DNA of 37,804 nucleotides from Armatimonadota bacterium (GTDB lineage Bacteria; Armatimonadota; Hebobacteria; CAIYQO01). This document shows, piece after piece, positions 4,921 to 35,040 of the stretch. The notes beneath the pieces were generated by a model. That model was not told where the DNA came from and did no database searches. It was given only the letters and a program-made list of their open reading frames with translations. The stretch lies in NCBI GenBank assembly GCA_020060775.1, contig JAGUZN010000301.1, positions 1-37,804 on the forward strand, given 5' to 3'. Both the position numbers and the translations under genes were made by a program. Within the stretch, counting starts at the first letter, position 1. Each line of letters starts with the position of its first letter.

Positions 4921-6504
4921 TTACGGGTAGGTCCATTCGTTGAGGAGTGGCATCGTTTTCGTCGCACCGAATAGCTTGGCGTTGCCGGAGCGCAGTTCAA
5001 GTAGGCAGGTCTGCGGTGCGTCAGGACGATCCGTCAGATGTTGTTGGGCGGTGGCCAGTTGGGCAAAGGCCGTCATTGGCAGCGGCTCGACCGCCCGTAA
5101 GGCGGTAAGGCGGTCGCCGAGCAGTACGACATCGGCAGTCACGATGCCCAGGAAGTCATCGGGCGGCGGTGAGGTGGCGAGCTGGGTGATGCGCCACTCC
5201 GCATGCGGCTGCGTAACCTGTTTTCCAATAAGCACCATTGCACGCGTGGCATCCACACGCAGAGGCGTCGGGCGGGCAATGGCGAAGATGCGCCACTGCA
5301 CCGCACGGTATCCGCCGTCATTCTTGCGATACAGCACCTGGGCAAAGACGGGTTCAGCGGGTACCGATTGCGGCTGCGTCCCAGCGGACAGCTGTTCCAC
5401 ACTGCGTACCAGGGCATCAGCCGCAGTGGAATCAGGCAGCGTGAATTCGGACTCCTGCCAATCAATCTGCTGCTCCTGCATGGCCTGTCGTTCGGCGAGG
5501 TGTTGTTGGTGATCCCGGTAGATGGAGACACCGATCAATCCGGCGAGCAACACGACCACCACGCCGGTCATCGCCCATTCCTGTCGCTGCAATTGCCAAC
5601 TACGCCAGTTGGCCACCAGGACGCCCCCGCAGATGAAGACCAGTCCGGGAAGATAATCGATCACAATGGTATGACCGAACAGCGTCTGACCTTCCAACGC
5701 GATGATCAGCGTGGCCAACAACAGGCCGGCGAAAATGCCCCACATGGTACGTGCGACGGAAAAGCCGAGCCGATACGCGCAGGTGAGAAAGAAGGCAAGG
5801 AAGACGAAATCGCCGATGCCGATGGAGTCGGGCGGGGCAATGCTGGCGACGAACTGCATTGACTGCGGCAGCGTCGCCTTGATTTCTTCTGACATGGTGA
5901 CGGCGGCGGTGGATGCTGACGCCATATAGCTGACCGCTGCCGGCGCGCTCTCGCTCATTTTATTGACGAATCCCCAGTACACGCCCCAGAAATCGATCAT
6001 GCCGGAGACGACGGCCACCGGCAAGAGGATCGCGCGTTCGCGCACGATCCGCGCCAGCAGTTGTCCGGCATACACGCCGGCGAGAATGAGAAAGAAGGGA
6101 ACGATGACATCGAGCAACGGATACCCCTGCATCGGGGTGAGCGCCTGCAGGACGCTGGTAAGCGATGGACCTTTTCGCAGGGCGCGCACCACCTGCCAGA
6201 CGATCGGATTCAGCCCGAGGAAGAGCAACAGGGAACCGAGCATCAACCAGGTCTGCACGCGCGCAGGCAACGCGACGGCGCACAGGAGGCGGATGGCGTA
6301 GACGAGGATGACCAGATACGATACGGTCGAAAGGACCGCCACGATGAGCAGCAACTGCACCGGCAAATGCAGCGATTGCGCATTGAACAGCGTGATACAC
6401 GCGAAGTAGATCAGGTAGAGCGCCGCACCGCCTAATGCCCGCTGCGCATCACGTGACAGGGTTGACTGTGGCTGTGCTGCCATCGGCTCATGCTGGTCGA
6501 TCAT
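4921..6504 (-). CDS. Putative presenilin/SPP-like GxGD membrane aspartyl protease with C-terminal soluble domain
   Basis: Residues 1-330 are polytopic, with about nine hydrophobic segments (near 22-42, 49-73, 84-104, 130-152, 158-180, 228-250, 254-270, 280-298 and 311-328). Three motifs fall where presenilin-family proteases have theirs: Asp171 in a membrane segment (GMIDFWGVYWGF), G229-I-G231-D232 (IGIGDFVFLAFF), and P286-G-L288 in YLPGLVF, which corresponds to the family's PAL motif with Ala replaced by Gly. The spacings of 61 residues Asp to Asp and 54 Asp to Pro are close to those of archaeal presenilin homologues as I recall them. Residues about 340-527 form a soluble domain I do not recognise. 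The ATG at 6504 has a G-rich Shine-Dalgarno and overlaps the end of the mreB-like gene by 17 nt, so the two are translationally coupled. An ATG at 6483 is an alternative start. The family call is inference from motifs; protease activity is unproven. Confidence 0.6.
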   Translation of the reverse strand: MIDQHEPMAAQPQSTLSRDAQRALGGAALYLIYFACITLFNAQSLHLPVQLLLIVAVLSTVSYLVILVYAIRLLCAVALPARVQTWLMLGSLLLFLGLNPIVWQVVRALRKGPSLTSVLQALTPMQGYPLLDVIVPFFLILAGVYAGQLLARIVRERAILLPVAVVSGMIDFWGVYWGFVNKMSESAPAAVSYMASASTAAVTMSEEIKATLPQSMQFVASIAPPDSIGIGDFVFLAFFLTCAYRLGFSVARTMWGIFAGLLLATLIIALEGQTLFGHTIVIDYLPGLVFICGGVLVANWRSWQLQRQEWAMTGVVVVLLAGLIGVSIYRDHQQHLAERQAMQEQQIDWQESEFTLPDSTAADALVRSVEQLSAGTQPQSVPAEPVFAQVLYRKNDGGYRAVQWRIFAIARPTPLRVDATRAMVLIGKQVTQPHAEWRITQLATSPPPDDFLGIVTADVVLLGDRLTALRAVEPLPMTAFAQLATAQQHLTDRPDAPQTCLLELRSGNAKLFGATKTMPLLNEWTYP

Positions 6505-7558
6505 AGAACCCCCCGGTCACTGTCGCGGCAGTTGGCTCCCAGACGCCGTCCTGACGACGCATGGATTCGAGATACGTGCCCGTGCCCAGCGCCACACAGC
6601 ACAGCGGATCATCGGCGACGCGCGCGGGAATCCCCACGCGACGGGCGAGATAGCCCTCAATGCGGCGCAACAACGCGCCGCCACCCGTAAGCACCATGCC
6701 GCGCTCCATGATGTCGGCGGCCAATTCCGGCGGCGTCTGCTCAAGCACCTGGCAAATTTTCTCGGCAATCGCGGCAAGGGGGTCTGCCAGCGTTTCGCGA
6801 ATTTCCTCGGAGCACAACCGCACGGTGCGGGGGAGGCCATCCATGAGGTCGCGTCCGCGCACTTCCATGGTGAGCTCGTGCTCCAGACGCTCTGCAGAAC
6901 CGATTTGCATTTTCACTTCTTCGGCCATATGCTCGCCGACGACGAGGTTGTACTCACGGCGAAGGTAACGCACGATGACGTCGTCGCACTGTTGTCCACC
7001 GACGCGCACCGCCCCGCCGGTCACCTGCCCTCCAAGAGAGATGATGCCGATATCGGTGGTGCCGCCGCCGATATCCACAACCAGGTTGCCCTGGGGCGCG
7101 GTGACGGCCACACCGGCGCCAATAGCAGCAGCAACCGGCGTGAGCAGGGGATACGCGCGACGAGCGCCTGCATCATGCGCGACGTCAAGGACGGCGCGCC
7201 GTTCAACGCCGGTGGCGCCGCAGGGGATGCTCATGGCCACGTCCGGGTTGACCACCCTGCCCCAGCCACACACCCGCGTGATGAGGTGGCGCAGCATGGC
7301 AGAGGCCACGCTATAGTTGGCAATCACGCCGGCTTTGAGCGGACTGACGGCATGGATATTGCCGGGGGTGCGCCCGAGCATTTGCCGGGCCTCTTCACCG
7401 ATGGCCACCAATTTGCCATCGGCACGCGCGACCGCGACGACTGCCGGCTCGCGCAACACGATGCCACGCCCCTGCTGGTAAACAAGGACGTTCGACGTGC
7501 CGAGATCAATCCCCAGTGCGGTATGTAAGCTGAACCACCGTATCGCCATAACTGTCAT
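6488..7558 (-). CDS. mreB: MreB-like actin-family cytoskeletal protein
   Basis: This protein belongs to the MreB/Mbl family, ATP-binding actin homologues that form membrane-associated filaments and direct wall growth in rod-shaped cells. Phosphate-1 is GIDLGTSNVLVY (Asp18), phosphate-2 is VVDIGGGTTDIG (Asp162, Asp169), and the adenosine loop is VLTGGGALLRRIEGYL. GEHMAEEVKMQIGSA is the typical MreB nucleotide-side helix. The length (356) is near normal, with about 20 extra C-terminal residues after the conserved end. Two ATGs (7558 and 7549) are possible and neither has a strong Shine-Dalgarno. The gene lies 17 nt after hisF and overlaps the downstream membrane-protein gene. No mreC, mreD, rodA or pbp2 is nearby, so it may be a paralogue rather than the main MreB. 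Confidence 0.9.
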   Translation of the reverse strand: MTVMAIRWFSLHTALGIDLGTSNVLVYQQGRGIVLREPAVVAVARADGKLVAIGEEARQMLGRTPGNIHAVSPLKAGVIANYSVASAMLRHLITRVCGWGRVVNPDVAMSIPCGATGVERRAVLDVAHDAGARRAYPLLTPVAAAIGAGVAVTAPQGNLVVDIGGGTTDIGIISLGGQVTGGAVRVGGQQCDDVIVRYLRREYNLVVGEHMAEEVKMQIGSAERLEHELTMEVRGRDLMDGLPRTVRLCSEEIRETLADPLAAIAEKICQVLEQTPPELAADIMERGMVLTGGGALLRRIEGYLARRVGIPARVADDPLCCVALGTGTYLESMRRQDGVWEPTAATVTGGFYDRPA

Positions 7559-7575: not shown

Positions 7576-8331
7576 TCAGCGTACCTGGACGCCGCGTTCA
7601 CGCAAATAGCTTTTCAATTGTCCGATGGTGTATTCCCCGTAGTGGGTGATGCTGGCGATGAGCGCGGCATCCGCTTTGGCCTCGGTCAACGCCTGGAAGA
7701 GATGTTCGGGCGCGCCAGCGCCGCCGGAGGCGATGACCGGGATGGAGACCGCTTCGGCGACGGCGCGCGTTTGCGGAATATCGAAGCCGGCTTTGGTGCC
7801 GTCAGCGTCCATGCTGGTGAGGAGAATTTCTCCCGCACCGCGCCGTTGCGCATCAACCGCCCACTCGACCACATTGATGCCGGTGGGCGTGCGCCCACCA
7901 TGCAGATAGACTTCCCACCATCCGTCAGGGTGGCGCTTGCCGTCAATGGCGACGACGACGCACTGACTGCCAAACCGCTCAGCCGCCTCGGAAATCAGCT
8001 CGGGGTTGAGCACGGCAGCCGTATTGATGGAGATTTTATCCGCCCCGGCTTTCAATAACTCGCGAAAGTCGTCGACCGCTTTGATGCCACCACCCACGCA
8101 GTAGGGGATGAAGACCTCTTCCGAGGTACGCGCCGCGATATCGAGGATCGTCGCACGACGTTCATGCGAGGCGGTAATATCGAGAAACACCAATTCATCA
8201 GCGCCTTCACGATCATAGAAGGCTGCGAGTTCCACCGGGTCTCCGGCGTCACGCAATTCGAGGAAGCGTGTACCTTTCACGACGCGGCCGTCTTTGACGT
8301 CCAGACAAGGGATGACACGTTTTGCCAGCAT
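7576..8331 (-). CDS. hisF: HisF, imidazole glycerol phosphate synthase cyclase subunit
   Basis: HisF uses ammonia delivered by the HisH glutaminase to convert PRFAR into imidazole glycerol phosphate and AICAR in histidine synthesis. This is a cytoplasmic (beta/alpha)8 barrel. Catalytic Asp11 ([14 protein letters not shown]) and Asp130 ([13 protein letters not shown]) are at exactly the classical positions. Phosphate-binding loops are visible in [10 protein letters not shown] and in [13 protein letters not shown]. The 251-residue length is standard. hisH and hisA are not in view, so the his genes are scattered or only this one sits here. It is first in a minus-strand run with the mreB-like and GxGD genes. 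The ribosome-binding site is weak. Confidence 0.97.
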
Positions 8332-25885: not shown

Positions 25886-31111
<5,226 letters not shown>

Positions 31112-31191: not shown

Positions 31192-34100
31192 TTATCGGCG
31201 CGCCGTCTCTTCCTCTTCGAGTTCGAGGTCGATGCGCTCTGCTTCGGCGTTCTCGACCTGCACCTGCAACCCGAGGGATTGCAGTTCCTTGATGAGGATT
31301 TTAAACGACTCGGGGATGCCCGGTTCGTTGATATTGGCGCCTTTGACAATCGACTCGTAGGTCTTCACGCGTCCCATCACGTCGTCAGACTTGATGGTCA
31401 GGATTTCCTGCAGCGTGTGCGCCGCGCCATAGGCTTCCAACGCCCAGACTTCCATTTCTCCAAAGCGCTGTCCGCCGAACTGCGCCTTCCCGCCCAACGG
31501 TTGCTGGGTGACCAGGCTGTACGGTCCGGTGGAGCGTGCATGGATTTTATCATCGACCAGGTGAACGAGCTTCATCATATGGGCATAGCCCACGGTGATC
31601 GGCTGATTGAAGCGGTCGCCGGTGCGTCCATCGTAGAGGATGCACTTCCCCGTCTTCTCGTTAAAGCCGAGCCGCGAGTCAACGCGCTCGCGCAGCTCCT
31701 GCGCCAGCCATTCGACCTGCTGGTCAGCACTGGCGTCACTCCACTGCTCGACGGATACCCCACGTATGGTCACCTGCGCAAAGGGCTCATCGCCCTGCAC
31801 TTGCGGCAGCAACAGCTGGGCCGCATCGCGCAGGATCCGATCGTATTCGGTCTGCAGGTCATGATTCAACCGTTCGACCTTTTCGAGACCGAGCTGGCGG
31901 ATCTCCGCGACCAGCCGTTCAGCTGAAAGCGCCGCGGCATAGTCGGGCACGTCGAGCTTCAGATCTTCCGACAGGTAACTGTAGAGCACTTGTCGGCGTC
32001 GGCGCTGCATGGTGAGGGCGAGATAGCTCAGGATCTCTTCCTCCATCGCCCCCTCGAAAATGGGGTTGGCGAAGCTACAGCCCAGTTCGTGCGCCACCAT
32101 GCCCAGGTGGGTTTCCATGATCTGCCCGATGTTCATGCGCGAGGGCACGCCCAACGGGTTGAGGATCATGTCCACCGGCGTGCCGTCCGGCAGGTGCGGC
32201 ATATCCTCGATGGGGAGGATTTTCGCGACCACACCCTTGTTGCCGTGACGTCCGGCCATTTTGTCGCCTTCCATCACCTTGCGGCGCTGGGCCACGAAGA
32301 CGCGCACGAGTTGGTTGACGCCGGGCGAGAGTTCATCGCCGGGAATGCGATGGACCTCACCGCCGCAGCGATCGCAGTAATTGCGCGTTTCGGCTTTGCC
32401 GAGTTGGTACTCGGTGGCGCAACGGTCACAGACTGACTTGACGCGCGAGAAGCGCTTCACGTCGACGACCTTGCCCTTTTCGCCGTGCGGGACACGCAAG
32501 GAAGTGTCGCGCATTTCCGCAGCTTTCTCGCCGAAGATGGCGCGCACCAGCTTTTCCTCCGAGGTCAGCTCTTCCTGCCCCTTGGGCGCAACTTTGCCGA
32601 CCAGGATGTCTTCGGCGCGCACCTCGGCGCCGATGCGAATCACGCCGTCTTCATCGAGATCTTTCAGCGCATCCTCGCCGACATTAGGAATGTCGCGGGT
32701 GATTTCTTCCGGCCCGACTTTGGTTTCGCGAGCTTCGATCTCGTACTTTTCGATATGGATCGACGAGTAGACGTCATCGCGCACCATCCGCTGGCTGAGG
32801 ATGATGGCGTCCTCGTAATTGAATCCTTCCCAGGGCATGAAGGCAATCAGGATATTGCGCCCGAGCGCAAGGTGGCCTTCATTCGTACACGGCCCGTCAG
32901 ACAGCGGATCGCCCCGGCGCACAAACTGACCCCAGCGCACCAGCGGTTTCTGGTTGATGCAGGTGGCCTGATTTGAGCGCATGAAGTTGATCAGCGGATA
33001 CTGATCGACATGCCCATCCGGCCGGGTGACCTCGATGAGGCTGGCATCGACATGGGTGACGATGCCCGCCGCTTTGGCCGGGAGTACCGCACCGGAGTCC
33101 ATGGCGGCGCGATCTTCAAGGCCGGTCATCACATACGCCGCTTCGGTGTTTACCAGCGGCACCGACTGGCGCTGCATGTTGGAGCCCATGAGGGCGCGGT
33201 TGGCGTCGTCGTTTTCCAGGAAGGGAATCAGACAAGTTGCTACCGACACCGTTTGCTTGGGCGATTGGTCCATATAGTCGATCTCTTCCGGCTTGACGCG
33301 CGGATAGGACGACCGGAACCGGCAAATCACTCGCCCATCTTTATCAGGCACGATGTTGCCGTTGTCATCGACGACGGTGGTCGCCGGGACAATGCGATGC
33401 CCCTCTTCCTCGTCTGCGGTGAGGTAGGCGACTTCATCCGTCGCGCGGCCATTGACCACGTGGCGGTACGGCGTTTCCAGGAAACCGTACTCGTTCATGC
33501 GCCCGTAGACGGCCATGGAGCCGATCAGACCGATGTTCGGACCTTCAGGGGTTTCGATCGGGCAAATGCGGCCGTAGTGGGAGTGGTGCACGTCGCGCAC
33601 TTCCAGCTTGGCGCTCTGCCGGCTCAACCCGCCGGGGCCGAGCGCGGACAGTCGCCGCTTGTGCGTGAGTTCGGCCAGCGGGTTCGTCTGGTCCATGAAC
33701 TGCGAGAGCTGCGACGAGCCGAAGAACGATTTAATCGCCGCAGAGATCGGCTTGGTGCTGATCACGGCCTGCGGGGTCACGCTCTCAGGGTCCAGGCTGG
33801 TCATGCGCTCACGGATGATGCGTTCCATGCGCAGAAAGCCGAGGCGGAACTGGTTTTGCAACAATTCGCCGACGCTGCGCACGCGCTTGTTCATCAAGTG
33901 GTCAATCTCGTCCACCGTGGTCGACGGATCGTTCTCATCCAGCCGCACCAGATAGCGCATAATGGCAATCAGGTCGTCTTTGGTGAGCGTGGTCACCGAG
34001 CCGGGCACGCTCAGGCCAAGCTTTTTATTGAGCATGTAGCGCCCAACACGCGCGAGATCGTAGCGGCGCGGGTCGGCGAAGATGCCGGCCAACCGCTGGC

Positions 34101-35040
34101 GGGCGAGTTCGGGCGTCACCGGATCGCCGGGACGGTCGCGGCGGTAGATATCGACCAACGCCTGGTCTTCATTATGGGTCGGGTCGCGTTCCAGCGTGGC
34201 CTCGATGAGCGGGCTGAGGATCGCCAACTCGACGTTCGGCAGCGCCAGTGCGCCGACGCGGCGAGCGACGGTCACGTCAATGCGATGACCGCGTTCGACG
34301 ATGACCTCGCCCGTCTCGGTATCGACAATGTCAGCCCAGGCGAAGCGACCCGCCAGCTGTTCACTGGTCGGCGCCTCGATCGTTTCCGGCTGGCCGAAGA
34401 GGACGACAAGATCGCTATCCAGACTGGTAGGCTCCACTACCTCGCCGGCCTGGCCGATGCTCTGCATGGCGCGCAGCAGCGTGGTGGCCGGGAAGCGGTG
34501 GGTCTGACCGATTTTCACGGAAATGACGCCATTCGCGTCCGTATCGAAGTCCAACCACGCCCCTTCGCTGGGAATGACTTGCGCGCTGTACAAGATGCGC
34601 CCGGAATAGTCGATATTATCTTTGAAGTAGACACCGGGGGAACGGGCGAGCTGACTGACGACAGCGCGCTCCGCCCCGTTGATCACGAAGGTGCCGGTGT
34701 CGGTCATAATCGGCAAGTCGCCCAGATACACCTCGGACTCTTTCAGTTCACCCGTGGTGGTGTTCAGGAGCTGTACCTGCACTTTGAGCGGCACTTCGTA
34801 CGTGGCGTCACGGTCGCGACACTCGCGAATAGAGTATTTGGGTTCACCCAGCGAGTACTCCCCGAAGGTCAGGCGCAAGGTACCGGTGAAGTCTTCGATG
34901 GGCGAGAAGTTGTCAAAGAGTTCTCGCAGTCCTTCGTTAACGAACCACTGGTACGAGTTGAGCTGAATCTCGATGAGGTTCGGAATCTGCTCGGGGCGTT
35001 GATGCCGGGTGCGTCCCTTGACGCGGATGACAGGTCTCAT
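31192..35040 (-). CDS. rpoB: RNA polymerase beta subunit with zinc-ribbon insertion
   Basis: This core RNA polymerase subunit has 1282 residues. The rifampicin pocket [17 protein letters not shown] and [16 protein letters not shown] is of the sensitive type. Catalytic-face motifs [27 protein letters not shown] and [20 protein letters not shown] are all present. Unusually, between KRFSR and [10 protein letters not shown] it carries a small four-cysteine ribbon, C871/C874 and C889/C892 (CDRC and CDRC), at the place where E. coli carries its large beta insertion. The ATG at 35040 has GGAGG 5 nt upstream. The gene heads the rpoB-rpoC operon. No ribosomal protein genes (rplK, A, J, L) precede it; an AAA ATPase gene does. 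Confidence 0.98.

Follow-up and report, generated by a model that had tools for sequence, protein, structure and literature searches.

The window analysed here is the whole stretch of 37,804 nucleotides from an Armatimonadota bacterium (contig JAGUZN010000301.1). On its minus strand lies a gene for a membrane protein with a GxGD motif, and the features of this gene, together with the two genes upstream of it, are as follows.

4921..6504, minus strand: gene for the GxGD-type membrane protein, 527 aa plus stop, ATG start.
5515..6504, minus strand: nine-helix membrane domain, residues 1-330, the core of the family (from the AlphaFold2 model and homologue identity).
5992..5994, minus strand: D171, candidate first catalytic aspartate, in helix 5 (157-176).
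5809..5820, minus strand: G229-I-G-D232, motif of the putative second catalytic aspartate, at the N-terminal end of helix 6 (230-246); aligns with the GxGD of SPPL2A and PS1.
5641..5649, minus strand: P286-G-L288, a PAL-type motif where helix 8 (287-298) begins.
4924..5514, minus strand: C-terminal soluble domain, residues 331-527, predicted to be extracytoplasmic, lineage-specific, with coding-type codon GC.
6488..7558, minus strand: mreB/mbl, directly upstream of the GxGD gene (PF06723, E 2.9e-126).
7576..8331, minus strand: hisF, the next gene upstream of mreB/mbl (PF00977, E 3.6e-83).

The start of the GxGD gene overlaps the 3' end of mreB/mbl by 17 bp, and the two further genomes of the window genome's family likewise have mreB immediately upstream of it. 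GC content by codon position is coding-like both in the membrane part of the ORF (0.60/0.42/0.78) and in its C-terminal part (0.72/0.46/0.68). Elsewhere in the window, positions 25889-31111 encode RNA polymerase beta' (1741 aa) and positions 31195-35040 encode beta (1282 aa). The Rpb1 domain 5 match in beta' was stretched across about 730 residues, which suggests a large insertion.

AlphaFold2 gave a confident model of residues 1-348 (mean pLDDT 91, pTM 0.89). We counted nine membrane helices in this model, at residues 13-46, 49-75, 81-98, 131-151, 157-176, 230-246, 250-269, 287-298 and 307-330; helical stretches at 100-121 were not taken as membrane-spanning and were left out of the count. 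This agrees with a sequence-only reading of the DNA, which had described a nine-helix protein with D171 in one membrane segment, G229-x-G-D232 in a later one and P286-G-L288 in the next but one, and in the model these motifs fall on helices 5, 6 and 8. A single helix (250-269) lies between the GxGD helix and the P-x-L motif, and the final helix begins at residue 307. The two aspartates are 61 residues apart and the second lies 54 residues before the proline, while the family medians for these spacings are 51 and 46.

Relatives of the protein were sought in 201 Armatimonadota genomes. The window protein as a single query gave matches in 146 of the 201, and a profile built from 57 relatives (A2) gave matches in 187 (about 93%), among them 133 of the 140 high-quality genomes, mostly with one copy per genome. 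Among the high-quality genomes without a profile match are the three that make up f17, as well as two of 1.5 Mb. In one genome (G062, locus L164) the GxGD gene is present as two tandem copies. Most members are about 280-360 aa long (median 323, n=124), and the window protein is 52-53% identical to the two other members from its own family of genomes. A scan of genome contigs with the window protein alone returned no match. Distribution outside Armatimonadota was judged from a strict pattern scan based on a tighter alignment, which found 20 loci; those with informative titles were Armatimonadetes, Armatimonadota, WS1 or Zipacnadia. No Pfam or NCBIfam model captures the family, and the gene is one member of what is apparently an uncatalogued, Armatimonadota-wide family of membrane proteins.

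Presenilin and SPP represent the enzyme class behind the gamma-secretase of Alzheimer's disease and have been described from eukaryotes and archaea. The first members from outside the eukaryotes were reported in 2010 (PMC2947513), and in the literature that we searched presenilin was not mentioned together with Armatimonadetes or Armatimonadota. The sequence-only reading had called such proteins sparse in bacteria. That statement has to be qualified, since the family is near-universal in this phylum and the window protein is not an isolated oddity.

Conservation was assessed in an alignment of 126 frames, which includes one spurious out-of-frame ORF (L076_4802) and one sequence truncated at a contig end (L146), leaving 124 complete sequences. 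We found that the D171 column holds aspartate in 125 of the 126 frames, the exception being the spurious ORF, and that the D232 column holds aspartate in 124, the exceptions being the truncation and the spurious ORF. G229 is glycine in 125 frames, P286 is proline in 124 and L288 is leucine in 118. The catalytic positions are unchanged among members that share 20-50% identity. Thus the two aspartates, whose loss among homologues had been named in advance as grounds for abandoning the presenilin/SPP interpretation, are invariant outside one truncated and one spurious frame. Because D171 and D232 are conserved across the 126 homologous frames, the motifs are not due to chance.

Other positions vary. 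The middle residue of the P-x-L motif is A in 62 frames, G in 33 and L in 26, and a literal PAL is present in 56 of the 124 complete sequences. The window protein does have PGL, as had been noted, but PAL itself is the commonest form in the family, so that a change from PAL to PGL describes this protein and not its relatives at large. At the third position of GxGD, 72 of the 124 complete sequences have G and 52 (42%) have A, the latter made up of 38 GPAD, 13 GFAD and 1 GMAD; these GxAD members mostly carry a literal PAL as well. The alanine (G231 column) stands at the position of G384 of presenilin-1, and this glycine is reportedly required for presenilin-1 function, to judge by the title of a paper from 2000. 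The tyrosine of the YD motif at the first aspartate is absent from the window protein, which has ID, and was found before the aspartate in 3 of the 126 frames.

Searched alone against Pfam, NCBIfam and the PDB, the window protein gave weak, unrelated matches (EmrE, TPR_21) at E 0.026 or worse, and it matched no presenilin or SPP model. Kinship with EmrE was dropped, as this match was gone when the family profile was searched against the PDB. Among 177,635 PDB sequences the A2 HMM gave two matches at E up to 10, namely SPPL2A (E 0.009) and presenilin-1 (E 0.012), both aligned in register from GxGD to PAL. As a yardstick, a human SPP fragment, itself not found in the PDB, reached PS1 at E 0.056. 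A search of the PDB with the archaeal PSH returned PSH itself and one spurious match, and neither SPPL2A nor PS1; the sequences of PSH and PS1 were verified against the PDB. The Pfam model Peptidase_A22B matched one family member above its cut-off (L079 in G155, 24.7 versus 23.3 bits), and two of its other, weak matches in the phylum were also family members. In the 201 genomes no family member matched PF06550 above cut-off.

Profile-profile comparison was done with hhalign against a four-sequence alignment of PSH, PS1, SPP and SPPL2A. The score was 44.0 for A2 and 40.9 for A4, an alignment led by the window protein, and in the latter D171, GxGD and PGL were all in register with the motifs of the target. 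By comparison, 200 column shuffles gave a mean of 11.3 (SD 2.2) and a maximum of 24.5, the reversed alignment gave 12, and the highest score against 34 unrelated polytopic proteins was 23.7. Against single sequences the scores were 33.1 for PS1, 29.3 for SPP, 25.6 for SPPL2A and 15.3 for PSH, the last being at the level of the null. The motif order and the in-register profile alignments bear out the claim that the order and spacing match those of presenilin-type proteases. Together, the invariant aspartates, the SPPL2A and PS1 profile matches and the motif-aligned hhalign scores support a presenilin/SPP-type GxGD interpretation. Short motifs can arise by chance in hydrophobic proteins, and the window protein had no significant single-protein database match, so the likeness might have arisen by chance or by convergence in a polytopic membrane protein of other descent. 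The invariance of the motifs throughout the phylum already rules out simple chance, and profile-profile scores so far above both the shuffled and the unrelated-membrane-protein controls make any such resemblance scarcely credible.

We also compared the fold of the model with known structures. In a Foldseek search with residues 1-348, PSEN1 chains ranked 1, 2 and 6 among 350,542 PDB chains, and with the full-length model they ranked 1, 2 and 4. Despite the top rank, the superposition on PSEN1 was poor, with a TM-score of about 0.2-0.3, an RMSD of about 20 Å and E above 0.1. The ranking is thus suggestive of presenilin, but the superposition does not establish that fold. PSH was not among the Foldseek matches listed, and a fold search of a viral structure library gave no match.

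Loop charges point to the orientation of the protein in the membrane. In 72 sequences, loops 4, 6 and 8 carry 2.2-2.6 K+R per 10 residues, compared with 0.6 in loop 5 and 0.3 in loop 7. By the positive-inside pattern the loop between D171 and D232 is therefore predicted to lie outside the cytoplasm, an orientation like that of SPP and opposite to that of presenilin, and helix parity then places the C terminus outside. The opposite topology of SPP and presenilin is stated in the title of Friedmann 2004, as cited in PMC7366577. Some members carry further domains. In one family, f16, a C-terminal PDZ domain follows the last membrane helix in L128, L130, L132, L134, L135, L136, L138, L140 and L141, and it scored above a Pfam cut-off in six of these (L130, L134, L136, L138, L140 and L141). 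Two others, L137 (1486-2805) and L139 (1-3816), carry at the N terminus a CarboxypepD_reg Ig-like domain together with what, judged by eye, is a likely signal peptide. L139 also runs into a C-terminal region that by eye has a hydrolase-like appearance. The positions of the PDZ domains and ectodomains are consistent with a C terminus outside the cytoplasm.

The window protein has a tail of a different kind. We found no Pfam match and no PDB match for residues ~331-527, as expected from the earlier description of an unrecognised soluble domain of about 190 residues, and most of this region was modelled with low pLDDT. The tail shows no detectable similarity to that of the nearest relative and was not found elsewhere in the class. 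Most members are only about 280-360 aa long, and the long tail is a lineage feature.

The family might descend from the GxGD protease fold and yet act here as a scaffold, channel or sensor, with the aspartates used for, for example, proton or ion handling. The helix count, the YD position and the 42% of members with GxAD depart from canonical enzymes, and the poor superposition of the fold would fit such a change of function. Set against this, both aspartates, G229 and the P and L of P-x-L are kept while identity drops to 20-25%, and the fusions to PDZ domains and ectodomains resemble known intramembrane protease architectures. We consider a non-protease role unlikely.

Comparison with known enzymes helps to place the family. 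Like SPP and SPP-like proteins (MEROPS A22B, PF04258), its members have the aspartates in adjacent helices, a GxGD motif and a P-x-L motif two helices later; most also have R-F after the GxGD helix, and the catalytic loop is predicted to be outside. Unlike SPP, they lack a tyrosine before the first aspartate, have GxAD in 42% of cases, end in a PDZ domain in some cases and are bacterial. SPPL2 proteins carry an N-terminal ectodomain. The resemblance to presenilin (A22A, PF01080) is in the GxGDFxF and PAL context (GLGDFIF versus GIGDFVF) and in the HMM match to PS1, whereas the predicted orientation is opposite, the large cytosolic loop between the aspartates is missing and the TM-score is low. 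In canonical A22 proteins the two aspartates lie in TM6 and TM7 and PAL in TM9, but in the window protein the corresponding positions are TM5, TM6 and TM8, with an extra TM9. Archaeal PSH (PF06550; 4HYC) shares the three motifs and similar spacing, with 58 residues between the aspartates (61 here) and 56 from aspartate to proline (54 here), although no match to PF06550 was found above cut-off and pairwise similarity was at the null level. The extracytoplasmic PDZ domain of the f16 members recalls site-2 proteases such as RseP (M50). Site-2 proteases use HExxH metalloprotease chemistry and are unrelated in sequence to the GxGD family.

Type IV prepilin peptidases (A24, PF01478) are also GxGD-type di-aspartyl membrane proteases and are widespread in bacteria, so the family could be their kin and process pilin-like signal peptides. 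This seems very improbable, because none of 57 members matched PF01478, the window genome has a separate A24 enzyme on another contig, and the only PDB profile matches were SPPL2A and PS1. Moreover, the order of first aspartate, 61 aa, GxGD, one helix and P-x-L is that of A22. The family would work in the manner of A22 enzymes. Because the YD tyrosine and the canonical helix numbering are absent and the fold comparison is no more than suggestive, we place it outside A22A and A22B, and it is best read as a new, divergent bacterial GxGD family.

The gene neighbourhood was surveyed at 61 loci and revealed no single functional partner. The gene leuS lies directly downstream of the GxGD gene in about 21 of the 61 (L033, L034, L038, L041, L047, L050, L068 and others), and a divergent GAF histidine kinase precedes it in about 14 (L051, L056, L057, L073 and others). 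In about a quarter of loci a divergent ANTAR regulator lies near the gene together with this kinase, and mreB adjoins the gene only in the window genome's own family. Directly upstream of the GxGD gene, L053 (5164-5505) and some 9 further loci encode a conserved small protein of ~114 aa that has no Pfam match. SppA (S49) was found in 107 of the 201 genomes and was not found in the window genome, which is about 92% complete. Since no SppA was found there, a role for the family in clearing signal peptides is possible. The members with PDZ domains or ectodomains speak just as strongly for regulated intramembrane proteolysis.

The window protein is thus most likely a GxGD-type intramembrane aspartyl protease and a distant bacterial relative of SPP and presenilin. 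In such an enzyme D171 and D232 would come together from neighbouring helices as a di-aspartyl active site within the membrane, and P-x-L would shape that site as PAL does. As in SPP, the loop between the two aspartates would lie outside the cytoplasm, as would the segment leading to P-x-L, and given this orientation the protein would most likely cut type II membrane segments. Candidate substrates are remnant signal peptides or single-pass regulators. In relatives the PDZ or Ig-like domains beyond the membrane, and in the window protein the unrecognised tail, may select or sense substrates. We lean towards a broader proposal, in which the family represents a third, bacterial branch of presenilin/SPP that was ancestral in Armatimonadota, clears signal peptides or carries out regulated intramembrane proteolysis, was diversified by extracytoplasmic PDZ, Ig-like and new domains, and includes, in about 40% of its members, a naturally occurring GxAD form of the active site.

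A bacterial family that carries the presenilin/SPP active-site signature and is near-universal in its phylum would extend the range of this enzyme class and bear on its origin. It would also supply many small natural variants, GxAD included, for work on structure and mechanism, and with the PDZ fusions a link to regulated intramembrane proteolysis can be put to a direct test in bacteria.
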